Positions 4,201 through 28,162 of a stretch of DNA of 31,469 nt are shown here, one piece after another. The position numbers and the translations under genes were made by a program. The notes below the pieces were generated by a model that saw nothing but the letters and a program-made list of their open reading frames with translations, was not told the origin of the DNA and did not search any database. Numbering within the stretch: the first letter of the stretch is position 1; each line of letters starts with the position of its first letter. The DNA lies in the IMG/VR virus record IMGVR_UViG_3300020463_000080, positions 1-31,469 of that record; one strand, given 5' to 3'. The stretch comes from a virus.

Positions 4201-6355
4201 GGTCAAGTCTTGTATTTATCGAACCAGTTGAAACTGATAGTTGAGTTAATCTATCGTTTTGTGTGTTATTAATTGTATCGTTACTTGCAGTATACGAGTT
4301 TAATGATGTATTTGAGTTAGATGCAGTAAATGAATTTAATGAAGTATTTAAAACCTCATCATCTAAATATTGTTTATCAATAACAGTACCTTGCCAAACA
4401 CCTGTTCCTATTGTACTTACAGTTGTAATTGCTGATTGTAAGAAGTGTTCACCTGCAACATAGTTCTCTGTAGTATCGTGGTCTATTTGAGATGAACCAC
4501 TAATTACGCCAGTTCCACCAAATAATACTTCATCTGTAATACTTCCTCCTAATGATACTGAAGTTCCGCTGATGGTAAAAGATTTATTAGTAATTGCAGT
4601 ACCATCAACTTGAGATGAACCAGAGATTACAGTTTTAGCATCTAATCTTGTATCAACATTAGCATCAAAGTTTGTTACCGAATCAGCATTTACTTGAGAT
4701 GAACCAGATATTACTCCATCTGCATCTAATTTTAATTTTACTTTTGCGTTTGAAAATTGATTTATATTAGCATAGTTTGTAGTTGATGCTACATCTATTT
4801 GTGAAGAACCAGATACAAGTGTTGGTTTACCTGTAATATTTGCGTAAGCAACTGCATCTGCGGTTAATCCAGTCAATCCACTACCATCTCCTTTGAATAC
4901 TGATGCAGAAACATCTGTATTGAATCTAAAGTTTTGGTCTGCATGATTCCATACTATTGATTTATTAGCACCATCAACAGTTAATCCTGCTCCATTTGCT
5001 GCAGAAGAATCTGCTGCTCCACTTGCTACTAAAATATTTAAATCCGCAACATTAAGTGTATTGGTATCTAATGCGGTTTGAGTACCTTGTACTGTTAAAT
5101 TTCCTAATACTGTTACATTTGAACTGTCTAATGTTATTGCGGTATCAAAAGAACTTGTAAATGAGTTTAGTGAGGTGTTACCATTTGATGCTGTAAATGA
5201 ATTTAATTCGTTTAATATTCCAACCACTTGAGATGAACCACTAACTACTGTTTTTGCATCTAATCTTGTATCTACATTGGTATCAAAGTTAGTAACTGAA
5301 TCAGCATTTACTTGAGAAGAACCACTTATTACACCAGTTGGTAAAACTGCAGGGATTTGGCCTGAACCACTTATTACACCAACCCCACCGAATAATACTT
5401 CATCTGTTATAGTACCACCAAGTGAAACCGCAGTACCACTTATTGTGATTGAATTGTTACTAATTGCAGTACCATCAACTTGCGATGAACCACTAATTAC
5501 AGTTTTCGCATCCAACCTTGTATCAACATTGGCGTCAAAATTTGTTACTGAGTTAGCGTTTACTTGTGAAGAACCACTAACCACACCAGTTGGTAAAGAA
5601 CTAACTATTTGTGCAGAACCACTCAATACACCCTTAGTATCTATTCTAGCATCTACATTAGAATCGAAGTTTGTAACTGAATCTGCATTTACTTGAGAAG
5701 AACCACTTATTACCCCTAAAGTGTTAAGTGTTGTGGTACTGATGTAAGAACCAGTATTTGCTTCTATTTGTCCTAATCTACCATCAAAAGATGATGTTGT
5801 ACTTTCTATATTTGTGAATTTTATATTTGCAGATGCAGTATGAGTATTAATTAACCCTATTGCTACATCATTGGATGCGGTATATGAATTTAAAGGATTT
5901 AAATCTGAACCACTTATGAATCCGAATGCGGTAATTTGTGCAGAACCAGATAAGTTTGTTTGACTAGTTATTACTGTACTTGTTGCGAATATTGTTCCAA
6001 CATGAAGGTCTTTCCATTTTTTTGTAGATGAACCTAAATCGTATGCGTTTGTTGATTCTGGTATAAGAGATGAACTTAATGAACCTTGTACAACAATATT
6101 ATCACTTGCCTCGTCTCCTAAAAATAATTGTCCTCCGATTCTTATATCTCCACTTGCAGAGATACTTGATGCAGTGATATCTCCATCAATCCAAAGATTA
6201 CCATGATTTTTTTGTTCTAATTTTGTTAGAGTTATAATATCGCCAGAACCTGATAATCCAACTACTAATGATGCCGAATCATCATTGATGAATGGTTCTC
6301 CGTAAGAAAGTGATGAAGGAGATGAACCTCTCCTCAGTTGTATAATAGCCGCCAT
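1292..6355 (-). CDS. Giant repetitive tail fibre with cupredoxin-like and S74 chaperone domains
   Basis: 1687 residues. The N-terminus (MAAIIQLRRG, then YGEPFINDDSASLVVG) is a phage fibre head. Roughly residues 210-1410 are a repeat field built on SGSSQ (23 copies by my count), often as VISGSSQVNADSVTNFD followed by NVDTRLDAKT. Two embedded modules recur in marine phage fibres: VADLNILVASGAAD (about 430-485) and IGDNIIELN...SGSLLWD (about 1130-1182). Residues 1423-1530 resemble a cupredoxin fold, with His1468, Cys1515, His1518 and Met1521 in the pattern of a copper site. The C-terminus (about 1592-1687) is a Peptidase_S74 intramolecular chaperone: SDERLK gives Ser1595 and Lys1600, followed by DYGVIAQEIEKIMPELV and a C-terminal helix. 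In the S74 family this domain trimerises the fibre and cuts itself off, so the mature protein probably ends near Ser1594. It follows a terminator and has its own promoter-like motif. Adsorption is the likely role; the target is unknown. Confidence 0.9.
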   Translation of the reverse strand: MAAIIQLRRGSSPSSLSYGEPFINDDSASLVVGLSGSGDIITLTKLEQKNHGNLWIDGDITASSISASGDIRIGGQLFLGDEASDNIVVQGSLSSSLIPESTNAYDLGSSTKKWKDLHVGTIFATSTVITSQTNLSGSAQITAFGFISGSDLNPLNSYTASNDVAIGLINTHTASANIKFTNIESTTSSFDGRLGQIEANTGSYISTTTLNTLGVISGSSQVNADSVTNFDSNVDARIDTKGVLSGSAQIVSSLPTGVVSGSSQVNANSVTNFDANVDTRLDAKTVISGSSQVDGTAISNNSITISGTAVSLGGTITDEVLFGGVGVISGSGQIPAVLPTGVISGSSQVNADSVTNFDTNVDTRLDAKTVVSGSSQVVGILNELNSFTASNGNTSLNSFTSSFDTAITLDSSNVTVLGNLTVQGTQTALDTNTLNVADLNILVASGAADSSAANGAGLTVDGANKSIVWNHADQNFRFNTDVSASVFKGDGSGLTGLTADAVAYANITGKPTLVSGSSQIDVASTTNYANINQFSNAKVKLKLDADGVISGSSQVNADSVTNFDANVDTRLDAKTVISGSSQVDGTAITNKSFTISGTSVSLGGSITDEVLFGGTGVISGSSQIDHDTTENYVAGEHFLQSAITTVSTIGTGVWQGTVIDKQYLDDEVLNTSLNSFTASNSNTSLNSYTASNDTINNTQNDRLTQLSVSTGSINTRLDQFATHTGSLGTAAFFNVTSSIFGDSTVVPTAAAVNDAIVASGGGDITAVGAGLGLSGGGVSGDVTLNIDTGSTHFTTAVTTLGGGSVNNSNVTLTAGAGLDGGGSFTLNQGGAANITFTVSDGVVSGSSQIDVASTTNYSNINQYSDSKVKLKLDADGVISGSSQVNANNITNFDANVDTRLDAKTVISGSSQVNADSITNFDTNVKAKLDADTVISGSSQVNANTILNFDTNVDDRLNAKTVISGSSQISLGGFSTTNLSEGTNQYYTDAKVKLKLDADGVISGSSQVDANSITNFDTNVDTRLDAKTVISGSSQVNADSVTNFDTNVDTRLDAKTVISGSSQVVLNDANKTGFNTDDVTEGSTNKYATTTNVKTALNSNLGTATIGDSDDTITIPGNLNVGGETNYTSTNNITIGDNIIELNYGGSATTSGILTKDATGSSTISGSLLWDASNDYWKAGKLGSESELITDGTLVSKLPTGVISGSSQVNADSVTNFDANVDTRLDAKTVISGSSQVNANTILNFDTNVDTRLDAKTVISGSSQVVLDNADKTGFNTADVSEHSSNLYYTDARVKLKLDEETVISGSSQVNANSITNFDANVDTRLDAKTVISGSSQVDGASITNKSVSFGGVSVDLGSSDATPAFNLADATTYPGDSNLTTLGTVTSGNVTAILPSGIISGSSQQTFLSSSFSETASLAIHTAEWILGADGSNHYTFTGPGHLTGSSDPAIYLTRGQQYRFTNKSGGHPFRIQSTTNGSAGTQYNNGVTNQDAGNNTTLTFDVPMNAPNTLYYQCTSHGNMGAPIYIADAADYLTAESDTLATVTGRGATTSTAIEFSNTTNSTSKTTGAVKIGGGLGVANNINAGGDIVAYASSDERLKDNIKPIKGALDKVSQISGNIFDWNEEKQNIYKGKDYGVIAQEIEKIMPELVDTRDDGYKAVKYEKIVPLLIESIKELKKEINELKSK
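2140..5715 (-). repeat. SGSSQ repeat field within the 1687-aa fibre gene
   Basis: In-frame coding repeats. Units of about 27-35 residues begin V-[IV]-SGSSQV and continue NA[DN]SVTNFD[AT]NVDTRLDAKT or variants such as DGTAITNKSFTISG. At DNA level the copies differ mostly at synonymous positions (for example tcaagt or tcacaa within SSQ), so the array is not a recent exact expansion. One related unit also occurs in the 1464-aa fibre. Confidence 0.85.
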
Positions 6356-6375
6356 TTAATACATCCTAAATTTTA

Positions 6376-6384
6376 TATAAATAT
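6376..6384 (-). promoter_or_regulatory. ATATTTATA nonamer, promoter-like, upstream of the 1687-aa fibre gene
   Basis: Read in the direction of transcription the site is ATATTTATA, 20 bases before the start codon, with a weak AGGAT between. One of nine exact copies in this window's intergenic gaps. Promoter role is inferred. Confidence 0.5.
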
Positions 6385-6390
6385 TCTTGT

Positions 6391-6404
6391 CCCAAATATT
6401 TGGG
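6391..6404. promoter_or_regulatory. Perfect 14-bp palindrome between two promoter-like motifs
   Basis: CCCAAATATTTGGG is a perfect inverted repeat with no spacer, centred between the two ATATTTATA copies of this gap (6376-6384 and 6419-6427). Its placement suggests a protein-binding operator. It has no T-run suited to a terminator. Function is inferred from symmetry and position only. Confidence 0.4.
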
Positions 6405-6418
6405 TAATTCTTCACTTA

Positions 6419-6427
6419 TATAAATAT
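6419..6427 (-). promoter_or_regulatory. Second ATATTTATA nonamer in the same gap
   Basis: An additional copy 63 bases before the fibre start codon and just downstream of the terminator at 6444-6472. Two copies in one gap could give tandem promoters for the large fibre gene. Confidence 0.45.
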
Positions 6428-6443
6428 GAATTTATTTGATAAT

Positions 6444-6472
6444 AAAAAAAAATCCCCGCCAAAGCAGGGATT
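6444..6472 (-). terminator. Rho-independent terminator after the 643-aa fibre gene
   Basis: In the transcript: AAUCCCUGC, loop UUUG, GCGGGGAUU, then an uninterrupted U-run. The nine-base stem is fully paired, with one U-G wobble. It begins about 25 bases past the stop codon of the 643-aa gene and separates it from the 1687-aa gene. Confidence 0.92.
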
Positions 6473-6496
6473 CTTTCCTAAAATGTGTGCCTGATA

Positions 6497-8428
6497 TTAG
6501 AATTCTCCACCATCTAAAGTTACTGTTAGAGAAGATATATCGGTACTTGAAGTTAACTGTTTTGAACCATTAGTTACTACTAATGAAGAAGCAGTTAAAC
6601 CACTAATTATTAGATTTGAACTGATTGTTACTACAGAACCATTATCAGAAATAGCAGAATCTACTAATAAATCTGATGCATTGGCCTTCAATATAGTGTT
6701 AGTAGTTGGAGATGCGTTGTAAAAAGTTAAGATTTTTTCTGAACCTTTAACTCCACCAATCCATCTATCATCACCTGTATTCCATAGTAATGAACCAGAA
6801 TTTGAAGTACCTTCAGCATCTCTTACATAAATACCACCATCGTTACTACCAGCAGCATTCAATTCAATGATATTATCACCGATTGCAAGATTTGTAGTAT
6901 CAATATAAGTTGTAGTACCACTAACTGTTAAGTTACCAGGTATACTGATTGTAGTTGTGGATGCACCCATTGTAAGAGTGTTAGCACCAACTGTATCAAA
7001 AATTGTTTTATTACCTGCAGTTAAATCTAAATCTGTTAATCCAACAATTGCAGTGATTGTATCACCTAATGAAGTATCAGTAGAACCGATTGTGATTCCA
7101 TCATTTACAAGTTTTGCATTTGCAATTGAACCACCTAACATATCGTTAGTAATACCACCATCTTTAACACTAATTGTTCTAGCAGCAGAACCATTAAAGG
7201 TTGTACCACTATTTAATTGAATTGATGAATCATCAACTGTTAAAGCATTTGTAGTTGTACCAATAGTTGTAGATGTATATGCGTTTGAACCAAATATTTC
7301 AGAACCAAGTTTTCTTTTCTGAGCAGTTCCACCATCTAATATTACAAATTCATCCTCTGCAGGTACGAAGGTTTGAGTCATATCTGTTAATTCTGTTAAA
7401 TCAACATCTACTTGGTCTGCCTGTACATCGATAAGGTTACCAGCACCTACATTGATTGCACCTGCAGTATCTGCAGTTAAACCTGCACCCGCCAATGAAC
7501 CAGAATCTACATGAATTGTTACATCACCACTTGTTCCACCACCATTTAGTCCTTCACCAGCAACTACTGATGTAATATCACCAGTGTTAGCAGTTAACTG
7601 GTTTGAACTTACAGATATACCACTACCAGCGATTGCAGTTAAGAAATCACCAATTGCTTCTCTTTTAACACCACTATCAGTAGCATCAAAGAATACAAGT
7701 GAATCTGAACCTTGTACGATAGCCGTATCTGTTATTCCAGCTGCGGTTAAGTATGAACCAGTTGCAGCGTTTAGTTGGGTGTTTTGATGTGCAGCAGATA
7801 GACTAATACCATCTGAACTTAATGATAAGGTTGAACCATCTAAATTAATAGATAAAGTTGAACCTCCACCACCAGCAATACCATTACCTTGTGCTGCTAA
7901 TCTTAAATTTTCTGAACCATCAGCTTCTAAACCTGTACCAGCGAAATCAGATACATCAACTCCAAGAGTCATGTTTTCTGCACCAGCCTGGTTAAGTGTA
8001 AATGTACCATCACCTGCTGTAAACTGAACACCATCTCCAGCAGAGATAGTTACAGTACTGTTATTTGGTGAAGTTAATGAACCAGATAAAATTGTAGAAC
8101 CACCAAAGTCGATTTGACCATGTGCCAATTCTACATCTGTGTTACCACCTTTACCAAGAATTGTTAATTTCTTAGCATCGGTTTCGTAGTAAGGTATACC
8201 ATCAACCGAATGGTCGAATGAAGCACCAGTTAAATTGGGTGCGGTAGCCGAACCTGTTAATATTTTGTTCGAGGGAGTTAATGCGTTTCCTTCAACTCCA
8301 ACAAACAGTAAACCCTCTTGATGTACTGATAAGTCAGAACCCGAAGCGATGATTAACTCACCATTAATGGGGGTTATGTCTTTAATACTCTCGAGTTTAC
8401 CTCTTCTATGTTTAATAGTTTGAGCCAT
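6497..8428 (-). CDS. Tail fibre-like structural protein (643 aa)
   Basis: The N-terminus MAQTIKHRRGKLESI then GELIIASGSDL is the phage-fibre head also found in the partial gene at the left edge. The body is low-complexity beta-repeat sequence with Asp/Asn/Gly turns (for example GGGTSGDVTIHVDSGSLAG). The block DMTQTF...DEFVILDGG...KRKLGSEIFGSNA is shared with the left-edge paralogue. The module IGDNIIELN...GGIYVRD...SGSLLWN (about residues 517-556) is shared with the 1687-aa protein and many marine phage fibres. There is no S74 domain; it ends LTVTLDGGEF, nearly the same as the end of the 200-aa protein. A clear terminator follows. AAGGA lies about 12 bases before the ATG. Probably a subunit of an adhesin or baseplate-distal fibre; receptor unknown. 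Confidence 0.85.
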   Translation of the reverse strand: MAQTIKHRRGKLESIKDITPINGELIIASGSDLSVHQEGLLFVGVEGNALTPSNKILTGSATAPNLTGASFDHSVDGIPYYETDAKKLTILGKGGNTDVELAHGQIDFGGSTILSGSLTSPNNSTVTISAGDGVQFTAGDGTFTLNQAGAENMTLGVDVSDFAGTGLEADGSENLRLAAQGNGIAGGGGSTLSINLDGSTLSLSSDGISLSAAHQNTQLNAATGSYLTAAGITDTAIVQGSDSLVFFDATDSGVKREAIGDFLTAIAGSGISVSSNQLTANTGDITSVVAGEGLNGGGTSGDVTIHVDSGSLAGAGLTADTAGAINVGAGNLIDVQADQVDVDLTELTDMTQTFVPAEDEFVILDGGTAQKRKLGSEIFGSNAYTSTTIGTTTNALTVDDSSIQLNSGTTFNGSAARTISVKDGGITNDMLGGSIANAKLVNDGITIGSTDTSLGDTITAIVGLTDLDLTAGNKTIFDTVGANTLTMGASTTTISIPGNLTVSGTTTYIDTTNLAIGDNIIELNAAGSNDGGIYVRDAEGTSNSGSLLWNTGDDRWIGGVKGSEKILTFYNASPTTNTILKANASDLLVDSAISDNGSVVTISSNLIISGLTASSLVVTNGSKQLTSSTDISSLTVTLDGGEF

Positions 8429-9164: not shown

Positions 9165-12100
9165 TAAGCTCCTCCAGAACCTGATGATGGATTTAAACCT
9201 AAGTTAACATTTGTTGAACTTGCTACTTGATTTGCTGCACCCACCATAAACCATTTTGTATAACCTACATGAGATGTACCTAATGTCATCTGATTTATTT
9301 CTGATGCTTCTAATGTGTTTGAACCATCTATTGTACTTCCATCAGTACCTACCTCTAAAACATATTCGCCAGTAGTTGAACCACCATATGAATCTGTTGT
9401 TGTTGTTGGAATTCCTCCCATATCTGAACCACTTGGGAATAAAATCACAAAGTGTTTCGATGAATTTCTACTGATTACACCACTACTTCCCATTGTTCTT
9501 ATTACTGAATGTAAGTTTGAACCACTTGCTTCTGCTAATTTCGTTGCAGTTTGTGTTCCACCATAATCATATGTAAATGATGCACTACCAATTCTATTAT
9601 CGTTTATGATTGCATCTACAAATCCAATATTTGAATATGGAGTTGCAACAGGTGGGGTTGACCCATCTTCTGATGAAATACCAACTGCGGTGTTATAAGT
9701 TGCGTTGTTAAATCCTACATCATAAACAAATACTCTACCATAATCTGCTGATTGTACTACTGTAAAACTTCTACCATTATATTCGGTTGATTTACTATAT
9801 GCGTCTGAAACTTTTACATTGTAACTATAACTTTTTGCTGTTAAGTTACTTGCTGCCTGAATACCTACTGATGATGAATTTGCATTAGCGTAAACTAATT
9901 TTAACGATGCTGCATCAGTTCCACTTAATGATGCTGAGAATGGAGTATCGGATTCTGTATCCGAAATACTCATACTAACCATTGTAGCATTTGTAGTTGC
10001 GTTATCTGTTTCAAAGTTAGCAGTTTGATTTGTAAATGTAGCAGTTGGTGCTGCATTTGCAAATACATTGACTGTTACTGAACCACTACCTATATTATTG
10101 TATTGGTCTGCAAATGTAATGTTCGATGAAATCGTATCAGTACTTTGAGTTGTACTACCACTCAAATTAAGTGCCAATGTCAAGTTACCACTATTATCTA
10201 TAGCAATTGCTTCATTTGTGGATGTAAATGTTGCAACTGCAGGTGAACCATATGATGGTGAATAACTTACTGTAAGTTGTGATGCGTTTCCTGCGTTGTA
10301 TCCACTTGCATCTCTGATTGTTGCTCCACTTACTGCAGATTCTATAATATAAGAAGTAGTATCTCCACCAAGTGTACCTGTATCTGCTTGTGCAACTGTA
10401 AATGTTTGTGAATTGTAATCTTGAGATTTACCATAATTGTCTGTTATCTTAACATTATAGTTATAAGTTTTTGCAGTTAGGTTACTCGCTGCGTGCAATC
10501 CAATCGATGATGAATTTGCGTTAGAATATACTAAAGATAAAGATGCTGCATCAGTACCTGTTAAGGATGCTGAGAATGGAGTATCATTTTCAGTATCACT
10601 AACACTCATACTTACCATCGTTGTATTAGTTGTTGCCAGGTTAGTATTTAACTTAGCAGTTTGATTTGTAAATGAAATACTTGGTGCTGCGTTTGCAACA
10701 ACCGAAACACTTAAACCATCAGTTGTTGTTGTACCAAAGGTATTTGTAAATGTTATAGTAGAACCGATTGTTTCTCCACTTTGGGTTGTTGAACCACTTA
10801 AATTAAGTGCCAGAGATAAATTACCACTTGAATTTATTACTATTGCTGGATTTGAAGAACTCCAAGTACCACTTTGATTTGCATCGTAATCTGCTTGAGT
10901 AGAACCATAATCAGTTGTTTTGATTGTTGAACCACTTAATTCAGATTCTTTAATATATGGGCCTGCAGACCAGTTATCTGTTACAGTTGCTGGTATATCA
11001 GCTGTGATAGGTATTGTTACTATCGCCTCATTTGAAGCAGTATTATATGAATCTCTTACTTGTATTCTATATTGGTATTCGTCTACTAAATCTGAATTTA
11101 TGAATACACCATTTCTTCTTGTTACAACTCCACTTGTACTACATTGGAATGGATTTTCATGTGGGTCTGTTAATTGTGATGTTCCACCATAAGAACCACT
11201 CGCTACATTACCATTATCTAATTCTAATTTATGAAGTGCAAAGTTGAAAAATTCAATAGTATCACTTTCACTATCAGTTGCTGATATTGTACCAACAGTT
11301 GCACCATTTGAACTATTTTCACTTATAGATGAAAGAGTTTGATTATTAATAGTTGGATGAACATTATCTACAACACTTATACTAACTGGTAATGTTACAA
11401 ATGATTCAGAATCTTGTCCTGCAACTTTGTGTTCATCAGATGCAGTTAAACTAAGTGTATATAAAGGATAGGTTTCATAATCTAATGAACCTGTATTTTG
11501 TGTTATATCAACATAAGTTGATGATTTTGTAATTGTAAAGTGAGATGTACCACCCGCGGGGGATATTGAAGATGAGTTGATTGTAATCGTATCACTTTCT
11601 GTATCGGTAAAGAAAATTCTTTTTATCAAAGTACTATTTGTACTATTTTCATTTACACTTGAAGTTACATTTGTGATTACATTACCAACTACCGAAGTTT
11701 CTCTAAACTTAGGTGCCTCGTTTGGAGTTACAATTATGTAAATATCTTTTTCTGTACTTGCAAGGAAAGTATCAGTTGCTTTTACTGTTACTAAATGTCC
11801 ATGTGCCCCACCCACTAATGCTGTATTGAATGATTCAGAGGTTGCAAGTTCTGTTAGTGTTATTTCACCACCAGTTGCTACTCTTACTTTATCTGCGGTG
11901 TAAGATGATGCAGTACTAAATGTTAGTGATTGTCCTTCTGCATCTGTACCAGCAAGAGTAACAACTGCCGAACCACTTGTTCTAAATTCTTCTATAGTTT
12001 GATTACCAGTTGTGATACTCGGAGCAGTGTTGGGGAAAAATACTGCGTTTAAGAAATCTTGAACCGAACCACTTGTGCCTGGATTAAATGATTGTGAAAA

Positions 12101-17116: not shown

Positions 17117-18724
17117 TTAGATAGTATCAATACCTTTAATATAAACTTTACCATAGAATTCTGGTCTTACCATTTTCTTAGCGTATCTAGTCATAACTCC
17201 TCTTCGTGGAGTGAAGTTAGCTGGGTCATACACTAATGGTGTCATGATAAGTGGAACATATGGAGCGTAAACAGCACCAGTTTCTAAGAAATTAGAACCT
17301 TTGAATCCTAACAAGATTTCGTTGTTAGTTTGGTAAGGGTTCTTATAAACTGTATATCTGTTTGCTAGTGAACCTACTTGAGATACACCTGCTGCGAACT
17401 GTCCAGCATCTTTATCAGCGTTTACAGAGAAAGCTGGTATAGATTCTAAGATAGTACATACGTCAGGTGATGCAACGATAAAGTTCGCTCCACCTCTCAA
17501 TGTTAATTGGTGAATCTTGTTAGAAACTTTGTTAAGTTTTGTACCAAGAGTCTGGAACCAAGTGTTCTTTTGGTAAGCTACTGCTGAATTAGCAGCAGTC
17601 CAACCTCCAACACCATCATATTCCTCACCTATAACTGCAGACCAGTATTCAGTTGTTAATGCGTTACTTCTTAACATATCTAAGATTTCTAAGTCAATCT
17701 CTAATGAGATGTACTCAGATAACATAGAAGTTAATTCAGCTTCAGCATCAATACTGTGGTAAGCATTAAGGTCTTGTGCCAATTCTGGCGTCCAAACTGC
17801 TTTCAGTTTTCTAGTCTTAGCAACGATAGCCTCAGATTTCAACTCAAGGTCGATTTCTGGAATATCAAGTGTTGCACCAGCAGAACCAGAAGCGTTTAAG
17901 ACTGGGTCTTTATCTTCAAAATCACCTCTGTTACCAGCACTTGTACCGTCAGCATAGTGAACTTCAAGTCCAGCTATATCTTCGATAGCACCAGATACAA
18001 AGAATACATAGTTACTACCGTCAACTTTGTTGAAAGCATTCAAGTTTTCAGATACTCCAGTACCTGATAGATAGAATCCTCTAATTGCATCATTGTCAGC
18101 GTTAGCACTAATGTTAGATTTTGCGATAACTACTTTCGCGATGTTACCAGCATCTACAGATGCAGTAAATCGTGAATCAAAGTTTAAATCAGAAAATACA
18201 GATGCAGTAGTAGCAGTTACATTACCACTTGCAACAGCTTGCTGCTTATCAGCAAGTGTATATCCGAATCTTCCATCTCCATATAGACCGTTTTTAGCAA
18301 CATTAGTTGAACCTAAGTCCGAACCATCACCACCAAATAGTGAAGAACCTGAATAGTTTGCTCCACCAAATTGTGAGTTGTTGTATTTAAAGTCTAAGTA
18401 GAAGATAAGTCCCGAAGGTAAGTTCATCGGTTGTACCGAAACGAATTCTTTAGATGAAATTTCACCGAAGATACGTCTTACCAAAGGAAGAGCAACACCA
18501 CTCCACTCTTCATTACCTGTAGAGGTAGAAGTAGCATTTGCTTCATCAAGCAATTGTTTTGCTTGGTTTTCTAAAAGAACAGCCATTTGATGCTGGTCTC
18601 TTTCTTTTAAGCCTTCAAGAAGTCCAGTTTTGTCCCATTTGCCTTTAAGTTGTCTTGTTTCAGCCAACATTACAGCTTGTGGGTTCTTTCCTTCCATCAA
18701 CTTAGATAAATCAAAATTTGCCAT
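17117..18724 (-). CDS. 23: Major capsid protein, gp23-like
   Basis: 535 residues, close to T4 gp23 (521). Recognisable segments: LPLVRRIFGEISSKEFVSVQ then PMNLPSGLIFYLDFKY near residues 80-115; RKLKAVWTPELAQDLNAYHS then IDAEAELTSMLSEYISLEID in the middle; and near the end GAVYAPYVPLIMTP, RGVMTRYAKKMVRPEFYGKV and YIKGI. The N-terminal ~61 residues look like the delta peptide that the T4 prohead protease removes: LLDE61 then Ala62 fits the (L/I)-x-E cleavage rule and lies near the T4 site (Glu65). Builds the hexamers of the prolate head. Preceded by AAGGAGAG at good spacing and 24 bases after the scaffold gene; followed by a strong terminator. No gp24 vertex paralogue is seen in this window. 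Confidence 0.95.
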   Translation of the reverse strand: MANFDLSKLMEGKNPQAVMLAETRQLKGKWDKTGLLEGLKERDQHQMAVLLENQAKQLLDEANATSTSTGNEEWSGVALPLVRRIFGEISSKEFVSVQPMNLPSGLIFYLDFKYNNSQFGGANYSGSSLFGGDGSDLGSTNVAKNGLYGDGRFGYTLADKQQAVASGNVTATTASVFSDLNFDSRFTASVDAGNIAKVVIAKSNISANADNDAIRGFYLSGTGVSENLNAFNKVDGSNYVFFVSGAIEDIAGLEVHYADGTSAGNRGDFEDKDPVLNASGSAGATLDIPEIDLELKSEAIVAKTRKLKAVWTPELAQDLNAYHSIDAEAELTSMLSEYISLEIDLEILDMLRSNALTTEYWSAVIGEEYDGVGGWTAANSAVAYQKNTWFQTLGTKLNKVSNKIHQLTLRGGANFIVASPDVCTILESIPAFSVNADKDAGQFAAGVSQVGSLANRYTVYKNPYQTNNEILLGFKGSNFLETGAVYAPYVPLIMTPLVYDPANFTPRRGVMTRYAKKMVRPEFYGKVYIKGIDTI

Positions 18725-18748: not shown

Positions 18749-19897
18749 TTAAATTAAATTTGCTAACTTTTTAAATCTGTTAGCGATTTCGTTAGTACTC
18801 TCTTCGATAATTTCTTTCTTTGGAGCAGTTGAAGCAGATGCCTTAGAAGCGATACCTTCTTGGATTTTTTGCTTTTTACTGTTTCCATTGAATTTCAATG
18901 ATTCTGCAAGTGTACTAAACACTAATTTTACCTCTCTTACAGAATTAGTTCTGTCAAGAGTTTCAACCACCTTAACTTTTTGTTCATTAGTTAAGTTGTA
19001 AGAACGGAATAACTTGTTAGCGAATAATAGTTTAGCATTTAAAAGATTTACCTCGTTGATTGTACCTTTAAGAGATTTTATAGTTTTATAAGCCTCTTTT
19101 AACTCTGTCTCTTTTTGAGCTAGAGTTTCGTCCATATCTTCGTGGTCACCTTCTTCTACTTCTTCTTCTTCACCGTATCCCATTTCTCTTAGAATTTCAT
19201 CTAAGTCGATATCTTCATCTACTTCTTCTTCTTCTTCCATGTCTTTCATTTCATCCTTTGGAGCTTCATCTTCACCTTCGTGAGAATCTTCTTCCATTTC
19301 AGAATGTTTTTCATCTTCATGAGAGTCGACAGCGTCTGCAGCGATATCTTCAACTTCACCTTCTTCTTCATCATCGAGTTCTTCTTCCATATCAGATTCT
19401 AACTCTTTAATGATAGCTTCAAGGTCAAGTTCTTCGTCTACCTCTTCATCGTGGTCACCTTCAGCAACTTCGTCAACTTCCTCTTCTTCTTCAGCAATTT
19501 CAGATACTTCTTCAGTTTCTTCTTTTACTTCTTCTTTAGATTCGTCTTCGTCTTCGCCTTCTTTTAAGTCATCCACTTTGTCAAGGTTACCATCTTCTGC
19601 TCCAACTTCTGCTGTTTCTTTTTCAGTTTCTGGGTCTAACTCAGTATGAGCATCATCGTACTCAGGTTCTTTGTTATCTCCTGCACCTATTTTAGAAGAA
19701 TCTACAGTTTCTTCTACTTCTTCAACTTCCTCTTTATCATCTTCTTCAGCAATTTCTGCTTGAAGTTTTTTAGATAAAATAGATTGTAGTTTAGGAGTAA
19801 AAGCTTCCTCTAATGCGATTTTAGCATTAGCGATTGCAGTTTCCTTTACAGCTTTAGCGTCAGCGATGGCTTCTTTTAACAATTTAGAATTTGCCAT
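18749..19897 (-). CDS. 22: Prohead core scaffold, gp22-like, extremely acidic
   Basis: 382 residues. The call rests on position (directly before gp23 and after the protease cluster), composition and ends. The N-terminus MANSKLLKEAIADAKAVKE is helical with LLKE9 followed by Ala, a candidate gp21 cleavage site. Residues ~55-255 are a Glu/Asp/Val low-complexity tract (runs such as EEEEVDE). The C-terminal third is helical (KLLFANKLFRSYNLTNEQKV, then TLDRTNSVREVKLVFSTLAE) and ends NEIANRFKKLANLI, like T4 gp22, which ends in a short basic/hydrophobic helix. In T4, gp22 forms the core on which the capsid is built and is then degraded by gp21. It is longer than T4 gp22 (269) because of the acidic tract. 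AAGGAAGG lies 8 bases before the ATG. Confidence 0.82.
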   Translation of the reverse strand: MANSKLLKEAIADAKAVKETAIANAKIALEEAFTPKLQSILSKKLQAEIAEEDDKEEVEEVEETVDSSKIGAGDNKEPEYDDAHTELDPETEKETAEVGAEDGNLDKVDDLKEGEDEDESKEEVKEETEEVSEIAEEEEEVDEVAEGDHDEEVDEELDLEAIIKELESDMEEELDDEEEGEVEDIAADAVDSHEDEKHSEMEEDSHEGEDEAPKDEMKDMEEEEEVDEDIDLDEILREMGYGEEEEVEEGDHEDMDETLAQKETELKEAYKTIKSLKGTINEVNLLNAKLLFANKLFRSYNLTNEQKVKVVETLDRTNSVREVKLVFSTLAESLKFNGNSKKQKIQEGIASKASASTAPKKEIIEESTNEIANRFKKLANLI

Positions 19898-20083: not shown

Positions 20084-20356
20084 TTATCTGCTACTTCCTT
20101 TTTTTCTTTTTTTAGTGTGTAATCTCACACTCGTATCACCATCATCAATTTTTTCTAATATAACTTGTCTTTGATTTTGTCTGATTGCTTGTAACTTCTG
20201 TTTTCTTTTACGAGTAGTTGGTTTTACAAATTCTTGTCTTTTCCTAACTTCGAATAAATGACCAGACTCACTTACTCTTCTCTTAAATATTTTTAATGCT
20301 TTTTGTATGTCTCCTTTTCTTACTTGAACTGAGACTAGTTTTGGGTGTTTACTCAT
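20084..20356 (-). CDS. rpsU: Phage-encoded ribosomal protein bS21 homologue
   Basis: 90 residues; bacterial bS21 is usually about 55-75. The family signature is clear: VQVRKGDIQKALKIFKRRVS, ESGHLFEVRKRQEFVKPTTR, then KRKQKLQAIRQNQRQ. It matches the bS21 pattern of a short N-terminal strand, KALRRFKR, an EVRRREFYEKPT-like segment and a basic helix. After about residue 64 there is an extra basic tail (TKKRKKGSSR). bS21 sits on the 30S platform near the anti-Shine-Dalgarno end of 16S rRNA and aids initiation; several marine phages are known to carry it. Altering host ribosome choice of mRNAs is the obvious inference. It has its own promoter-like motif. Odd: AAGGAG lies only 1 base before the ATG, unusually close, and I see no better start. 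Confidence 0.9.
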   Translation of the reverse strand: MSKHPKLVSVQVRKGDIQKALKIFKRRVSESGHLFEVRKRQEFVKPTTRKRKQKLQAIRQNQRQVILEKIDDGDTSVRLHTKKRKKGSSR

Positions 20357-20391: not shown

Positions 20392-20736
20392 CTACGAACC
20401 TTTTCCGGTCCCACTCTTTCTTCCACCAGTATGAGTAGATACATTGATTGGTTTTTTACCTTGGCCTCTTGATGTCTTACCACCACGATTCGCTTTGTTT
20501 TGTGCTGCCCTCTTTCTACGAGTTGCACTTTCTTTTTCTTTTTTACTCATTGTGGCTGCTTTTGCTGCGGGTACACATTTAGCATATCCTTTTTTCTTAC
20601 CACTTGTACCACATGGTGGATGTTTTCCACTCTTATCTTTTTTTCCGATATTGACCCACTTCTTCTTAAACCAGTTTCTCAAATCTTCGTTTCTGGTTTC
20701 TTCAAATATTTCATCTAAGATATCTTGCAGTTTCAT
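20392..20736 (-). CDS. Small basic protein with MKLxDILxE leader (114 aa)
   Basis: The leader MKLQDILDE is followed by a domain known from phage and giant-virus proteins of unknown function: LRNWFKKKWVNIGKKD, then GKHPPCGTSGKKKGYAKCVP and AAKAATMSKKEKESATRRKR. Two cysteines (PPCG and AKCVP) could bind metal. The C-terminal 40 residues are Lys/Arg/Gly-rich and end TGGRKSGTGKGS, likely disordered and nucleic-acid binding. With the LDE9 cleavage-like site, a DNA-binding internal head protein carried into the prohead by its leader is a reasonable inference. The ATG overlaps the stop of the preceding gene (ATGA). Confidence 0.8.
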   Translation of the reverse strand: MKLQDILDEIFEETRNEDLRNWFKKKWVNIGKKDKSGKHPPCGTSGKKKGYAKCVPAAKAATMSKKEKESATRRKRAAQNKANRGGKTSRGQGKKPINVSTHTGGRKSGTGKGS

Positions 20737-20963
20737 CTTTTTTCTAAATTATACTTCCTAATGGTTCTATCATCTAATAGTTTACCATTTACTGTCATCA
20801 ATCTTTTACCTTTGTAATACACATTCCAATTTCCTTTTGGTGATGCATCGACTTCAATATCTCTAAAATCTTTTATCTTATTATTTGATACTTGAATTGT
20901 ATCTAAAAACTCTGCTGCTTTAGGAGTTAGTGAAATCTCGTTAAGAATATCTATTAGTTTCAT
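20733..20963 (-). CDS. Small protein with MKLxDILxE leader (76 aa)
   Basis: Not recognised. It opens MKLIDILNEIS, the same leader as two neighbours, with LNE9 as a candidate protease site. The rest (LTPKAAEFLDTIQVSNNKIK, then FRDIEVDASPKGNWNVYYKG and KRLMTVNGKLLDDRTIRKYN) looks like a small mixed alpha/beta fold with a basic C-terminus. It overlaps the 429-aa gene upstream and the 114-aa gene downstream by 4 bases each (ATGA), so it is translationally coupled. Candidate internal head protein. Confidence 0.75.
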   Translation of the reverse strand: MKLIDILNEISLTPKAAEFLDTIQVSNNKIKDFRDIEVDASPKGNWNVYYKGKRLMTVNGKLLDDRTIRKYNLEKR

Positions 20964-22249
20964 TTTCCTAATTGAAATAATTTTTCTTCAATTGCTGCAT
21001 TAGTTCTGTAATCATAATGTTTTGGATTCTCTCCAAAATCTTTTAGAGATTTTTCCAACCACATTCTATATTTTCTTTTACCAAATTTTTTTTCCATTGT
21101 AGAAAGTACATCGTAAAATATCTTTTCAGATTTAACTTTTTTTACTAAATCTTTGACTTGTTTTTTATCTTCACTTATACCTTCAGCAAATTTCATTAAC
21201 CCTCTCACTCGTTTTACTAATGTACCTGCAGGAATCCCATAGGTATCACTCATTACACCTTGAGTAAACTTATTTGATAAGAAGTTAGATAATTCTTTTT
21301 TAGTTGCAATACCACTCTTAAATTGGTTTCTTGCAATAGAATCTAATTCTTTAGCATCTATCTTACCTTTAAAATATGCAGTAAGTGCATCTGCTTTGTA
21401 GTTGTATTTTGCTTCGTTTGCTGATTCTCTCGGGTCTTTTTTAGATAAAGTTTTTGATATACTCTTAAGATACTTAAGTTCTTGTTTAGCACCTTTATGT
21501 TTAGCATATCTTTCTAAACCAAATGATAACATTATACCAATTGATATATGTAATCTTCCTTTTTTAGCTTTTGGATATTTTCTACCATATGGTGAAGAGT
21601 TAAACCAATCTAACATAGCTTGTGCCATTTCCTTAGATACTTTGATTCCCTCTACTTCACGAGTCTGTCCTTTGATTACTCTTTTTAATCCACCTTCTGC
21701 AGAGATTTCGTTTATTGATTCATCAACACCTTTGATTTTCCTTTGGGTCATCATTACTTTGTACCCATCCTTTTTCATATCACCCATAAACTTTTGAGCC
21801 ATCTTTTTATCAGCGTAGGCTGCAAATGCAGGTTTGATAGGTTTAGGTCCTTTTCCATATGCTACAACAAATGCTTCGTTTACTGATTCGTTTACTTTTT
21901 GAAGATGTTTGTAAATCTTGTTTGCAAATGCAGGTGAAGTAAGTTTAGCAATAAAGATAATTGTTTTTCTTTTATCTAACTTGACACTCTTTCCACTTCC
22001 ACTACCTTTTACATCAGGTGGGTTACCATCCATTGAGTATCCATAATCTATAATATTGATAAGTTCGTTGTTACTATTAAAGGTAAGTTTGTATGCAGAT
22101 ATCCTTGAACTATACATAACTCTTATTGTTAGTTCAAAGTTTCCTTCTCTATCCTTCTTATCAGAACCAATAACCATTCCAAACTTTTCGCCTGTCTTTC
22201 GGTTTTGTCCTTTTATAGAAGCCTCTTTTAGTTTTTGCATTTTCTCCAT
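20960..22249 (-). CDS. Candidate internal-head polyprotein with ES(V/I/A)NE linkers (429 aa)
   Basis: Not recognised as a whole. The leader MEKMQKLKE9 is followed by four dissimilar basic modules joined by near-identical linkers: VNESVNE (119-125), VDESINE (175-181) and PRESANE (273-279), each followed by Ala or Ile. Module 1 (10-125) includes NRKTGEKFGMVIGSDKKDRE and a GSGSGKSV loop. Module 2 (126-181) is short: FVVAYGKGPKPIKP then a Lys/Met-rich helix. Module 3 (182-279) and module 4 (280-429) are Lys-rich and helical. The linkers resemble the (L/I)-x-E rule of T4 prohead protease, so a polyprotein cut inside the prohead is inferred. Start: M1 puts the Glu at position 9, as in gp22 and three neighbours, and has GGTGG upstream; M4 is an alternative. 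It overlaps the previous gene by 22 bases. Confidence 0.8.
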   Translation of the reverse strand: MEKMQKLKEASIKGQNRKTGEKFGMVIGSDKKDREGNFELTIRVMYSSRISAYKLTFNSNNELINIIDYGYSMDGNPPDVKGSGSGKSVKLDKRKTIIFIAKLTSPAFANKIYKHLQKVNESVNEAFVVAYGKGPKPIKPAFAAYADKKMAQKFMGDMKKDGYKVMMTQRKIKGVDESINEISAEGGLKRVIKGQTREVEGIKVSKEMAQAMLDWFNSSPYGRKYPKAKKGRLHISIGIMLSFGLERYAKHKGAKQELKYLKSISKTLSKKDPRESANEAKYNYKADALTAYFKGKIDAKELDSIARNQFKSGIATKKELSNFLSNKFTQGVMSDTYGIPAGTLVKRVRGLMKFAEGISEDKKQVKDLVKKVKSEKIFYDVLSTMEKKFGKRKYRMWLEKSLKDFGENPKHYDYRTNAAIEEKLFQLGK

Positions 22250-22989
22250 GTTCCACCCTTAGATTTATAATTTTTTGCAGCCCATCCATTAGCATATGCA
22301 GACGGGTAAACATCAAATTTTCTTTTAGCAGCTGCTTTGGATGCTGCCCACTTACCAGGGTCATTCGGACAACTTTTTTCAGTCATAATCATTCTTTCAA
22401 CTTTTCGTCCAAACTCATAGAGTACTTGTTCTTGTTCGTTTAGGTCAGACTCTTCTTTGATTGTAGTAGTGATTGAACCATCAGTATTTCTACTTGAAAC
22501 TTTTACTGATTCTTCATTTACTGATTTATCACCACATCCACCTGGAGTAGTTCCTCCACATCCACATCCACAATCACCTTTTGATTCTGCGATACCTAAT
22601 CTTTGTTTCATTTCATCTTCAGTAATCTCACCAATTTTATAGTACCTCGAAAGTATGTTGCCCATATCTTCGTATAATCCATTCATTCTTTGGTCTAAGC
22701 TCCTTGCCTCTTTTGCAACTTTATCAAATTGAGTACCTAACTTAGTTAACTCACCCATATTCCTTTTTACTGTGTGTCTATCAAACCAATCATCAGCTTC
22801 TCTTAGAGCAAGTTCTCTAGCAGCCTCTGTGATACCACCCAAAGTTTCAGCAACTTCAATGATATCAGATTTTCTATCCATAGATTCTTGATATTTGTTG
22901 TATGTAGAAACGATTTCTAAGAAGTGTTTCTTTACTTCGTTAGACAATCCTCTATCTTCTGATTCTTTAAGTATATCTGTTAGTTTCAT
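22228..22989 (-). CDS. MKLxDILxE-leader protein with Cys cluster and C-terminal KWAASKAAAKRKF domain (253 aa)
   Basis: The leader MKLTDILKE9 precedes a helical region (20-135) rich in Glu and Arg. Then comes a compact Cys/Gly cluster (Cys140, Cys142, Cys144, Cys152: GDCGCGCGG...GGCGD), two linker-like sites (SVNE159, DLNE185), and a final domain: CPNDPGKWAASKAAAKRK, FDVYPSAYANGWAAKNYKSK, GGTWRKC. That domain recurs at the ends of many phage proteins of unknown function; Cys207 and Cys251 bracket it and may pair or bind metal. It looks like another multi-module internal protein. AAGGAGAG at good spacing fixes the start. Function unknown; packaging into the prohead is inferred from leader and context. 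Confidence 0.8.
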   Translation of the reverse strand: MKLTDILKESEDRGLSNEVKKHFLEIVSTYNKYQESMDRKSDIIEVAETLGGITEAARELALREADDWFDRHTVKRNMGELTKLGTQFDKVAKEARSLDQRMNGLYEDMGNILSRYYKIGEITEDEMKQRLGIAESKGDCGCGCGGTTPGGCGDKSVNEESVKVSSRNTDGSITTTIKEESDLNEQEQVLYEFGRKVERMIMTEKSCPNDPGKWAASKAAAKRKFDVYPSAYANGWAAKNYKSKGGTWRKCKN

Positions 22990-23232: not shown

Positions 23233-23643
23233 TTAATATAATTTTTTTAATGCCTTTTCACCAGATGCTGCGAAATACCATTTTCTATCTCTCATATCAT
23301 ATAAATATACATATTCTGCACCACCCGCCATACCACTCTTTTTTATGTATTTTGCAATATCTTTAACATCACCCTTTATAGGACTTGGTTTCTCGTTATA
23401 GAACTCTACTGGTTTATCAGCAAAGATTCCTCTTGCTCCACCACTTTTAATTAGTTTAAGAACATCTTTTTCGTTCTTCATGTGTTTCTTAATACCTGGT
23501 TTCATATTAGATGGGTATCCATCAAAATGAACATAGCCTGATTGAATCTTTCCACTTCTATCGATAATACCAATTTGTGAACGAGTTCCTTCTTTCAGAC
23601 TACCTAATGCTTTTAAATTTACTATTCCGCCTAATCTTATCAT
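23233..23643 (-). CDS. YVHFDGYPS-family phage protein (136 aa)
   Basis: After a leader-like segment ending GSLKE18, the sequence reads SQIGIIDRSGKIQSGYVHFD, GYPSNMKPGIKKHMKNEKDV, LKLIKSGGARGIFADKPVEF. The HFDGYP core and following helix are typical of a phage protein family of unknown function found in many tailed phages. The C-terminal half (EYVYLYDMRDRKWYFAASG) is a beta-hairpin region also typical of that family. The ATG overlaps the protease stop (ATGA) without its own Shine-Dalgarno, so translation is coupled to gp21. The LKE18-Gly junction may be a gp21 site (inference). Confidence 0.75.
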   Translation of the reverse strand: MIRLGGIVNLKALGSLKEGTRSQIGIIDRSGKIQSGYVHFDGYPSNMKPGIKKHMKNEKDVLKLIKSGGARGIFADKPVEFYNEKPSPIKGDVKDIAKYIKKSGMAGGAEYVYLYDMRDRKWYFAASGEKALKKLY

Positions 23644-24224
23644 GATAATTCTGTTATTATTTCTCTTATTAAATCATGTGCCTTACAATAGTTACCACAC
23701 ACATCTGCAGATATAACTTTTTTAGATTCGTTTACTGGTGTCATAAATGCACCATGTGTTGATGGATTGGAAACAAAATCCCAACCAAGTAATTCAAAAT
23801 CTTCACCAACTCTAACCTTACCATTACCGATTGGTTCTACTGAACCCATACCTCTTGAGGAAATACCTAAAAGGATATTTGCCTTAAGTAATTCTTTTAA
23901 TATGTTACCAGATGGAGTTGGTAGTATTTCTACAGTACCTATTAAATCATCACCTTCCCAATGTATTTCTTTTACATTGTGAGAAACATTTTTTAAGTTT
24001 ATTACAGAAGAGTCCGGATGGTCTAACTCACCCAACGCTCTTCTTTCTTTAATGAGAGTTTCATACTTTTTAGCTTCTCTCATTAGAATTTCTTTTGGAT
24101 ATACTCTTTCGTTTTGGTTAGGAGCACCAGCTCTTTGAAGAATACCTTTTACCAATGTCCTACCATTAGCATCTTCGTTTACTTTTCCTTCAAATAATCT
24201 TGTTTCTATTAATAAATTTTTCAT
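23640..24224 (-). CDS. 21: Prohead protease, gp21-like
   Basis: 194 residues from the ATG at 24224. A longer reading from an upstream TTG adds four residues, but GGGGAG lies 4 bases before this ATG and the ATG overlaps the preceding stop (TAATG). Family signatures: RRALGELDHPDSS with His69; NVSHNVKEIHWEGDDLIGTV; EILPTPSGNILKELLKANIL followed by LGISSRGMG with Ser122/Ser123; and GWDFVSNPSTHGAFM with Asp149. These fit the T4 prohead serine protease fold, with His and Ser as catalytic residues. In T4, gp21 cuts scaffold, capsid and internal proteins after (L/I)-x-E and finally itself. Possible self-cleavage sites here are LIE7, LFE12 and VNE166, the last removing a Cys-containing tail. It is smaller than T4 gp21 precursor (212). 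Confidence 0.93.
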   Translation of the reverse strand: MKNLLIETRLFEGKVNEDANGRTLVKGILQRAGAPNQNERVYPKEILMREAKKYETLIKERRALGELDHPDSSVINLKNVSHNVKEIHWEGDDLIGTVEILPTPSGNILKELLKANILLGISSRGMGSVEPIGNGKVRVGEDFELLGWDFVSNPSTHGAFMTPVNESKKVISADVCGNYCKAHDLIREIITELS

Positions 24225-24412
24225 TATGCTCCCCAACTTTTTCTTTTCTTGAATAAATCAAAAAAGATTGCAGATACTTCTTGTCTGATGATTTTTCTGA
24301 TTTCATCTCTATCAGACTCATTGAGTTCCTCAGTAACTAAAAAATGGTTTACACCATATTTAAAATCTCTGATTTCCTCGTTGATGATATCATACAATTC
24401 ATTTTTAGTCAT
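24224..24412 (-). CDS. Small protein just upstream of the protease (62 aa)
   Basis: Not recognised. Start chosen at the ATG one base after the preceding stop (TAAGATG), with GGAGAG about 13 bases upstream; the longer open frame would overlap the previous gene by 71 bases. It reads MTKNELYDIINEEIRDFKYG, then VNHFLVTEELNESDRDEIRK and IIRQEVSAIFFDLFKKRKSW, so it is almost wholly helical. It has INE12 and LNE sites, like its neighbours. Its stop overlaps the protease ATG. Similar N-termini occur in small phage head-region proteins. A core or internal protein is a guess from context. Confidence 0.65.
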   Translation of the reverse strand: MTKNELYDIINEEIRDFKYGVNHFLVTEELNESDRDEIRKIIRQEVSAIFFDLFKKRKSWGA

Positions 24413-24413
24413 C

Positions 24414-24608
24414 TTAGCTCTTTTTCTCTCCTCTACCTTTCCAAGTTTTTTCAATCTTGTTAAAGAATGCCTTCTTTTCATCATCGGACATTTGAGGAAT
24501 AGATTTACCAGCTTTTTCTAATGCTTTTTTGAAAAATTTCTGATATTCAGATTCTTCTTTTAAAACATCTTTGATGATTTCTTTTAATCTACTTTTTGTT
24601 ATTTTCAT
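24414..24608 (-). CDS. Small MKITKSxLKEIIKxxL protein (64 aa)
   Basis: Opens MKITKSRLKEIIKDVLKEES, a leader seen on many small proteins of marine T4-like phages. LKE10 and LKE18 fit the protease rule, and position 10 equals the cut position in T4 internal proteins. The remainder, EYQKFFKKALEKAGKSIPQM then SDDEKKAFFNKIEKTWKGRG, is a small helical domain. AAGGAG lies 9 bases before the ATG, which overlaps the preceding stop (ATGA). Function unknown; candidate prohead core protein. Confidence 0.75.
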   Translation of the reverse strand: MKITKSRLKEIIKDVLKEESEYQKFFKKALEKAGKSIPQMSDDEKKAFFNKIEKTWKGRGEKKS

Positions 24609-25063
24609 TGGTCTAACTCCTTTATACTATTAGCTATGTTAATTAATCTTTCCTTTACATTATAAATATGACGATGAGTTCTCTTCCAATAGTTATTCTT
24701 GTCGAGTTCATTCATCGTTTTTATTTTATTATACCAGTTAAAAAACTTTTCAACTTCTGCTAATTGGTATTTTAGTTCTTTAAGACCAACTGCTAATTTT
24801 TGATTAGGAGAACGAGTTTCATCATTCTTTAATTCTAACCATCTATTAACTGGTCTTTTTATTTTAGCCTCATCAACTTTAGTGTACCCACTTGATTTGA
24901 CTATAGAATCTTTTTTCTTTTTATCTTTCTTCCTACCACCTGAAAAAGCAAAAGGAGTTTGATACACATCTACATTTGCTGTAGTTGTTACTTCATCCAA
25001 CTCTTCTTCTTCTATTTCTTGGATAAGTTCCTCAATAAAAGATTTTAATTTACTTTCTAACAT
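24605..25063 (-). CDS. Phage head-cluster protein with TTTANVDVYQTPFAFSG motif (152 aa)
   Basis: Residues 1-24 are an acidic helix (MLESKLKSFIEELIQEIEEE) ending ELDE, followed by VTTTANVDVYQTPFAFSGGR and a Lys-rich stretch. The second half contains NRWLELKNDETRSPNQKLAV then a long helical segment with FFNWYNKIK and NYWKRTHRHIYNVKERL. The TPFAFSG and NRWLELKNDE..TPNQK pattern is one I associate with conserved proteins beside the portal in environmental T4-like phages, with no assigned function. AAGGA precedes the ATG. It overlaps both neighbours, so it is part of one coupled set from the portal to the protease. The ELDE-Val junction may be a maturation site. Confidence 0.75.
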   Translation of the reverse strand: MLESKLKSFIEELIQEIEEEELDEVTTTANVDVYQTPFAFSGGRKKDKKKKDSIVKSSGYTKVDEAKIKRPVNRWLELKNDETRSPNQKLAVGLKELKYQLAEVEKFFNWYNKIKTMNELDKNNYWKRTHRHIYNVKERLINIANSIKELDQ

Positions 25064-27757: not shown

Positions 27758-28162
27758 TTACCAAGCTCTACAACTCCAATACCTTGCCTTATGTCTTGGG
27801 CCTGGATTATCACAGTTGTGTCTTGCTCTGAATGACTTCCTTCTTGCAGGGTCACTCTTTTTTATTTTCATTGTTTTTTCACCACCCTTACCTTTATGTC
27901 CAAAGTTTACCTTTACAACATTTCCTTGTGGGTTTTTTACATATACTTTGAATTTTTTTACATCACCTCTTGTTGGTTTACCCAACTTAACTTTTCTACC
28001 TTGATACTCGGCTTCGTTAACTTCAGGTTTGTAATGTTTTAAAAATTCAACTATCTCTCTGTAATCTTGTTGGTTTTCACAATCATATTCTTGAATATCA
28101 TCAGCAGTCTCTCTGATAGTATTTACAAAATTTGAATAAAGTGCTTTTGTTATTTCTTCCAT
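27758..28162 (-). CDS. Small basic phage protein between terminase and portal (134 aa)
   Basis: Two parts. Residues 1-50 are acidic and helical and end PEVNEA, the same (V/I)NE-Ala form as the linkers of the 429-aa protein. The rest is a conserved phage domain of unknown function: EYQGRKVKLGKPTRGDVKKF, KVYVKNPQGNVVKVNFG, then DPARRKSFRARHNCDNPGPR and HKARYWSCRAW. The end is strongly basic, with two cysteines and two histidines that could hold a zinc ion, and suits DNA or RNA contact. TAGGAG and a promoter-like motif lie just upstream. If cut at VNE, the mature product would be the basic domain, a plausible DNA-associated head protein (inference). Confidence 0.78.
   Translation of the reverse strand: MEEITKALYSNFVNTIRETADDIQEYDCENQQDYREIVEFLKHYKPEVNEAEYQGRKVKLGKPTRGDVKKFKVYVKNPQGNVVKVNFGHKGKGGEKTMKIKKSDPARRKSFRARHNCDNPGPRHKARYWSCRAW

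Follow-up and report, generated by a model that had tools for sequence, protein, structure and literature searches.

Results

A modular protein among the head genes of a T4-like phage

The window (the whole stretch of DNA analysed, 31,469 nucleotides) is a metagenomic viral record that covers the head region of a T4-like phage. The head genes identified in it are those of the large terminase, the portal, an S77 prohead protease and a gp23-like capsid protein. Among isolates, the best matches of the capsid protein or protease, at 39-54% identity, come from Microcystis phage Mel-JY01, Flavobacterium phage immuto and Rhodothermus phage RM378. A search with the protease in one genome each of 84,980 bacterial and archaeal species found no relative, and a host could therefore not be assigned. 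The Pfam match of the protease covers its catalytic domain (residues 41-197 of 198, 3.5e-26). We presume this enzyme, the activity of which is inferred, to process a protein of 429 residues that is encoded approximately 1.4 kb downstream; the linkage of that gene to the protease and head genes is plain. The protease itself carries VNE/D and PVNE/S at residues 21 and 170 (a slash marks a predicted cut). The features are collected in Table 1. Two short ORFs of the core cluster (24224-24484 and 24414-24608, both on the minus strand) overlap by 71 nt in different frames. A ribosomal protein S21-like gene of 90 residues (20084-20356, minus strand; phrog_21469, 2.3e-07) lies in the head cluster beside the scaffold gene, and Mel-JY01 has an S21 gene at a comparable place.

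Table 1. Features of the window, by position, and multi-module proteins of two cultured phages. L numbers denote loci.
Feature	Position	Strand	Remarks
gp23-like major capsid protein	17117..18724	-	propeptide site QLLDE/A after residue 61; gauge of protease specificity
382-aa acidic scaffold-like protein	18749..19897	-	assigned by location between polyprotein and capsid genes and by composition; INE and STNE sites
114-aa protein (phrog_23735)	20392..20736	-	own CTS-like start; last module of L019, L021 and L025 polyproteins
76-aa basic protein	20733..20963	-	CTS-like start MKLIDILNE/I
429-aa putative polyprotein gene	20960..22249	-	48.7 kDa, pI 9.9
Module M4b, residues 361-429	20963..21169	-	recurrent C-terminal or near-C-terminal module
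Module M4a, residues 280-360	21170..21412	-	ends GISE/DKK; N-terminal module in L018-L020 and L025 without adjoining M4b
Linker 3, GAATCAGCAAACGAA	21413..21427	-	ESANE
Module M3, residues 182-279	21413..21706	-	other contexts in L003, L004, L041, L062
Linker 2, GAATCAATAAACGAA	21707..21721	-	ESINE
Module M2, residues 126-181	21707..21874	-	99% nt identity in L003, 95% in L010/L011; upstream neighbours unrelated
Linker 1, GAATCAGTAAACGAA	21875..21889	-	ESVNE; exact consensus DNA word
Module M1, residues 10-125	21875..22222	-	includes linker ESVNE; pI 9.8, 12.8 kDa
Residues 1-9, MEKMQKLKE/A	22223..22249	-	candidate capsid-targeting propeptide, x-K-E/A site; inferred from T4 CTS
253-aa neighbour	22228..22989	-	CTS-like start MKLTDILKE/S; SVNE/E at 159, DLNE/Q at 185
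gp21-like prohead protease (Peptidase_S77)	23640..24236	-	PF03420 3.5e-26; phrog_207 8.8e-49
64-aa protein	24414..24608	-	L041 homologue has M3 and another module appended
152-aa core-type protein	24605..25063	-	VDE/A site is the place of the two-module insertion in L041
134-aa protein (phrog_7595)	27758..28162	-	propeptide ending EVNE/A at 50; last module of L002, L004, L007 and L010 polyproteins
Multi-module proteins, L215 (MZ577098, Melnitz)	2915-4867, 5132-6520
Multi-module protein, L214 (OQ984149)	10811-11932

A preliminary description of the locus had proposed that three ESxNE linkers divide the 429-residue protein. This held, with VNESVNE/A ending at residue 125, VDESINE/I at 181 and PRESANE/A at 279, as did its report of related motifs in the 253- and 134-residue proteins and in the protease, all of which were found where it had placed them. 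Its count of four modules held only in part. There are at least five, since the last 150 residues comprise two units joined at residue 360, each of which occurs without the other in relatives (M4b without M4a in L009, L031, L043, L051, L062, L069, L070 and others). The first nine residues resemble, by analogy, a short targeting peptide; they make a weak N-terminal propeptide ending in an E site, and the assignment is no more than a possibility. The motif ES[VILAT]NE was found 163 times in 234,220 residues of the related loci, compared to 2.1 expected from composition. At the DNA level the linker word, with up to three mismatches, matched the window 14 times; 100 shuffled versions averaged 1.95 matches, and none exceeded 6. 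Counts so far above both expectations indicate that the linkers are not due to chance.

Agreement of the linker with the rule of the prohead protease

The prohead proteases of T4 (gp21), SPN3US and phiKZ all cut following a glutamate, in the contexts L/I-X-E, A-X-E and S-X-E, respectively (PMC9026906, PMC5694885, PMC10052503). As an independent gauge of specificity we used the capsid propeptide sites of the clade, which give a site sequence only, the cleavage being inferred. The 23 distinct sites read [LVI]-x-E/A, with Leu at P3 in 16, Val in 6 and Ile in one, and Ala at P1' in 22. The linker agrees both with the aliphatic-X-E rule of T4 gp21 and with this capsid site, an agreement seen in the sequence alone. 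The aliphatic P3 of the ES[VIL]NE linkers is set by our search pattern; P1' is Ala or Gly at 93 of 156. Val at P3 departs from the T4 preference for Leu or Ile, and is the residue found in the six capsid sites just mentioned. In approximately 40% of the linkers Asn or Asp precedes ESxNE, often after an aliphatic residue, which yields a further x-E site that overlaps the first, as in VNESVNE; phiKZ propeptides are known to have redundant sites (PMC9026906). With the 382-residue scaffold-like protein, relatives are likewise predicted to be cut at ESTNE. We consider that the linker in all likelihood resembles the site at which the head protease of the phage cuts, an inference made in the absence of cleavage or virion data for these phages.

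Modules are shuffled among relatives

Relatives were retrieved from IMG/VR by searches with the whole 429-residue protein (13 loci) and with the protease (80 loci); the search with the whole protein gave no match in isolate phages. BLASTP of each module against the ORFs of the relatives showed that module order and context vary, with alignments that stop at the linkers. Compared to the window, related contigs have modules in a new order, extra modules within the chain or at its end, or modules missing, and the boundaries fall at ES[VIL]NE. The order in L003 is M4a-...-M2-M3-...-M1-M4b-like, and L009 has M2 and M4b. L002 retains M1-M2, followed by different modules, despite 95-96% DNA identity to the window in portal and protease. 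M1 stands by itself or among different neighbours in L002, L003, L006, L007, L041, L062, L073 and others. The M1 of L002 (8001-8375) is itself an apparent chimera, its first half like that of L005 and the window and its second half like that of L047, and exchange is therefore not confined to linkers.

All multi-linker ORFs (101 non-redundant ORFs from 90 loci) were cut at the linker, which gave 372 segments; these fall into 60 families that recur and 125 singletons. Of the 60 families, 53 have neighbours of more than one kind, and 96 of the 101 architectures are distinct. Junctions were also located without reference to the motif. Aliphatic-x-E was present at 52% of the C-side and 72% of the N-side junctions, compared to backgrounds of 21% and 27%. 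A looser junction statistic was diluted by Glu/Lys-rich proteins and was dropped in favor of this stricter version. For module fragments, a global alignment (A1) gave wrong placements, and overlaps of two modules (A2) were used in its stead. Modularity, shuffling and the position of the junctions at linkers are shown. Families F6, F10 and F12 keep a constant position as last modules, and family F2 is preceded by 19 kinds of module; one possible arrangement is an anchor at the C-terminus preceded by variable cargo. The head regions of immuto and Mel-JY01 contain no ESVNE multi-module protein. The scaffold-like protein of immuto (L094, NC_055915, 10627-11868) has a near-identical internal duplication (GFEQWLDSVSAQMDKFGKNNPTIQAIEKAV...).

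The C-terminal KFDVYPSAYANGW module of the 253-residue neighbour is internal in L007. Together with the 114- and 134-residue proteins, which are modules elsewhere (Table 1), this means that a given unit may stand as a gene by itself or form part of a polyprotein. Thus, both outcomes by which the preliminary description proposed to check its reading, modules in a different order with the same linker and modules as separate genes, were found. In L041 two modules (184 residues) lie within a homologue of the 152-residue gene of the window. The N part of this homologue (35 of 69 residues identical) ends at ESVNE where the window protein has KVDE, and the C part (67 of 87 identical) starts with AK[IV]KRPVNRWLELK; the modules therefore sit exactly where the protein without the insertion is predicted to be cut. 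An N-terminal propeptide with an E site is present in the neighbours within the window (MKLxDIL[NDK]E). Some relatives open directly with a module, without an obvious N-terminal targeting peptide, and such polyproteins count against a clear targeting step, which is itself inferred from T4.

The linker is conserved as DNA

Conservation of the linker at the DNA level is a point that the preliminary description did not contain. In the loci fetched by protein homology, 134 of 163 ESVNE codings (82%) are the exact word GAATCAGTAAACGAA; its expected share is 5% from the codon usage of the polyproteins outside linkers and 7% from that of the capsid genes. High-expression codon bias as the cause of the invariant codons was rejected on this last figure. 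We selected 77 linkers whose flanking stretches of 12 residues are unrelated on both sides, 56 of which read ES[VIL]NE. Among these, Val is GTA in 48 of 48 (usage 47%), Ser is TCA in 48 of 56 (39%) and Asn is AAC in 45 of 56 (39%), and for linkers with unrelated flanks the information content falls to background at the linker edges. At homologous junctions, codons for the same residue differ at 0.13-0.17 within the linker, compared to 0.42-0.59 in the most diverged modules. A scan of IMG/VR by the DNA word alone returned at least 117 loci with 168 matches, 157 of these 168 in the ESVNE frame. As single 15-mer matches include chance hits (a methylase-like protein in L110, L170 and L187), we rely on the 33 loci with multiple matches, in which all 84 matches are in the ESVNE frame; 29 of these loci have head genes of this lineage.

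When polyprotein genes are aligned as nucleotides, 43% of the alignments terminate in an 18-nt window at a linker on the C side and 47% on the N side. The C-side window has a computed background of 4.2%, and the excess is approximately tenfold. Between the window and L003, M2 is 99% identical over 150 nt with an identical linker, and identity drops to 28% in the 60 nt upstream. Modules often show higher identity than core genes: M2 is 95% identical in L010 and L011, compared to 69% for the portal, and M4a is 93% identical in nucleotides in L045 and L073, compared to 80% for the protease. While the DNA conservation is shown, recombination as its cause is inferred; the alignment breaks and module identities are the pattern expected from recombination at the linker. 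General phage recombination over a short shared patch may be the simplest agent, and a dedicated enzyme is not excluded.

The modules are basic and of no recognized function

The modules of the 429-residue protein are basic (pI 9.6-10.1), with predicted products of 6-13 kDa, and the median pI is 9.5 across 370 modules. Small, basic mature products are what a T4-type internal protein calls for, with the reservation that the sizes are predicted and the release of products is inferred. The AlphaFold model of the whole protein is of low confidence (pLDDT 53.7). Its low-pLDDT stretches include 119-125, 171-181, 270-280 and 358-365, and minima of confidence and coil coincide with the linkers. Modeled alone, M1 is better predicted than inside the whole chain (pLDDT 78, pTM 0.71). 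These predictions support separate domains and tell little about function. Linkers buried in one continuous fold, which would have refuted the preliminary description, were not seen in this low-confidence model.

Whole-protein searches of PHROGs and Pfam were uninformative (a weak match to phrog_5979; Spectrin_3 below its cut-off, and no Pfam domain above cut-off), and fold searches of the PDB with the whole model and with M1 gave nothing at E<=0.001. Among nine other polyproteins searched against Pfam at E<=0.01, eight are without a domain, the exception being L066 with DUF3008 and an RNase_J_C match. A known function was found for no module. Some polyproteins start with a DUF3008 domain (L066:9700-12399, Pfam 2.7e-13; L168:9172-11319), which is also present in cyanophage proteins, one of them annotated as a virion protein.

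Discussion

We propose, as the likely explanation, that the 429-residue protein is a modular precursor of head-internal (core) proteins, cut by the protease and shuffled at a dual-purpose seam. The same arrangement would hold for a large group of uncultured T4-like phages. The protein would be made as one chain and, by analogy with T4, would enter the prohead core, where the gp21-like S77 protease would cut after the last Glu of every E-S-[VIL]-N-E linker. Five small basic proteins of approximately 6-13 kDa would be released; as in T4, these may be retained with the DNA, and their ejection into the host, where they would act as accessory factors, is probable. The preliminary description's view of a precursor cut within the prohead into several small basic proteins is supported, and the basic character held; cleavage remains undemonstrated, and packaging, ejection and the functions of the modules are inferred. 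The near-invariant 15-bp linker sequence would be the seam for recombination, which joins and inserts modules and swaps them between phages such that new combinations stay in frame and cleavable. A bolder reading, for which we see as much reason to doubt as to believe, is that of a cassette system, in which T4-like phages exchange an open-ended stock of small proteins packaged in the head, with one 15-bp sequence acting as recombination joint in the DNA and as prohead-protease release site in the protein.

The chain could instead be an expendable scaffold that is cut up and expelled to make room for DNA, its modules being filler rather than cargo. The T4 core proteins are indeed cut by gp21 into multiple fragments that mostly leave the head (PMC9026906), and a core-type gene has modules inserted in L041. 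However, the window has a separate acidic scaffold-like protein, the modules are basic and M1 is predicted to fold alone, and their fast turnover between close relatives suits accessory cargo better than structural filler; we regard this alternative as unlikely. Equally improbable, in our judgment, is an uncut multidomain protein that works intact, with ESxNE serving merely to tether domains flexibly or to dock the chain at the prohead core. Cleavage data are absent, and the targeting peptide and cut site overlap in T4 (PMC9026906), so that a repeated docking tag could not be told apart by sequence. Against it, the linker ends in the P3-P1 pattern of the protease with Ala or Gly at P1', modules of the polyproteins also occur as genes of their own with propeptides, and flexible tethers have no need of a fixed sequence.

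The linker DNA might primarily be the site of a dedicated recombinase or endonuclease, with the peptide as a by-product, as the sharp 15-bp conservation exceeding the protein code could suggest. This we consider very unlikely: conservative variants persist (Ile or Leu for Val; Ala in the window) and are always aliphatic-N-E, nearly all matches to the word keep the ESVNE frame, other aliphatic-x-E sites also serve as junctions, and no recombinase was identified beside the linker. There remains the possibility that chimeric metagenomic contigs gave false module orders, all relatives with the full ESVNE pattern being metagenomic. It is all but excluded by the recurrence of the same logic throughout the non-redundant ORF set, open, in frame and with breaks at the linker, and by the cultured phage Melnitz, which has related modules joined by LxE-type sites.

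The precursor of head-internal proteins that we favor resembles T4 IPI, IPII, IPIII and Alt, gp21-processed small basic proteins of the head interior with N-terminal propeptides terminating in E (PMC9026906, PMC3012670), a feature that is weak in the 429-residue protein and lacking in some relatives. Shared with the T4 internal proteins are the S77-family protease, the diversity between relatives and a conserved tag on a variable body. Each of those, however, has its own gene and one CTS, whereas here one ORF encodes several, has predicted sites in its interior and exchanges modules at a constant DNA word. As in the T4 core proteins gp22, gp67 and gp68, a prohead protease would cut one chain at several places; the T4 fragments are mostly discarded and show no module shuffling, while the pieces here resemble folded, basic, interchangeable domains. 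A parallel to the predicted sites here is offered by the cleaved ejection proteins of phiKZ and SPN3US, head proteins cut after x-X-E at redundant sites (PMC5694885, PMC10052503). In SPN3US, 13 of 14 mapped sites serve the removal of N-terminal propeptides and a multi-product precursor was not reported (PMC5694885, PMC10052503), unlike the precursor proposed here. Polyvalent proteins of phages and conjugative elements are also multidomain and shuffled, and have been suggested to pass into the host along with the DNA and to undergo processing; their authors draw the analogy to polyproteins (PMC5512222). These have known enzymatic domains and often an embedded metallopeptidase, in contrast to the small unknown basic modules, uniform linker and separate prohead protease seen here. 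The 429-residue protein does not show what defines them, several known domains of enzymatic or DNA-binding type, commonly accompanied by an embedded peptidase. Its architecture and sites fit a polyprotein of the RNA-virus type, the separate release of products being inferred from sequence. No description of cargo polyproteins processed by a head protease in phages was found in the open-access full texts searched, subscription papers and preprints being outside that scope. The closest known kind is the T4-type internal proteins, with a substantial chance, as yet only a possibility, that the DNA-seam cassette reading makes this a kind apart.

The linker would be a case of a site for protein processing that apparently also serves as a seam for recombination, and the system would offer a natural way to load a phage head with several proteins. 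Should the modules indeed be released and injected, the payloads of these phages consist of several effectors that can be interchanged, and payload genes in uncultured phages can be found with the linker word as a tag. T4 internal proteins include anti-restriction factors (PMC3012670), and the module repertoire is therefore a possible source of undescribed counter-defense or host-takeover proteins; the families and singletons counted above were drawn from a small sample. The cultured Kyanoviridae phages Melnitz (MZ577098) and C48C1 (OQ984149) make cleavage testable in culture. Their multi-module proteins, annotated as hypothetical, share several modules with the ESVNE polyproteins and have CTS-like starts (e.g., MKKFSEIIE/A) and LxE-type joints, without the uniform ESVNE linker. 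In Melnitz protein 18, a stretch behind MKKFSEIIE/A resembles, by eye, a nucleotidyltransferase.
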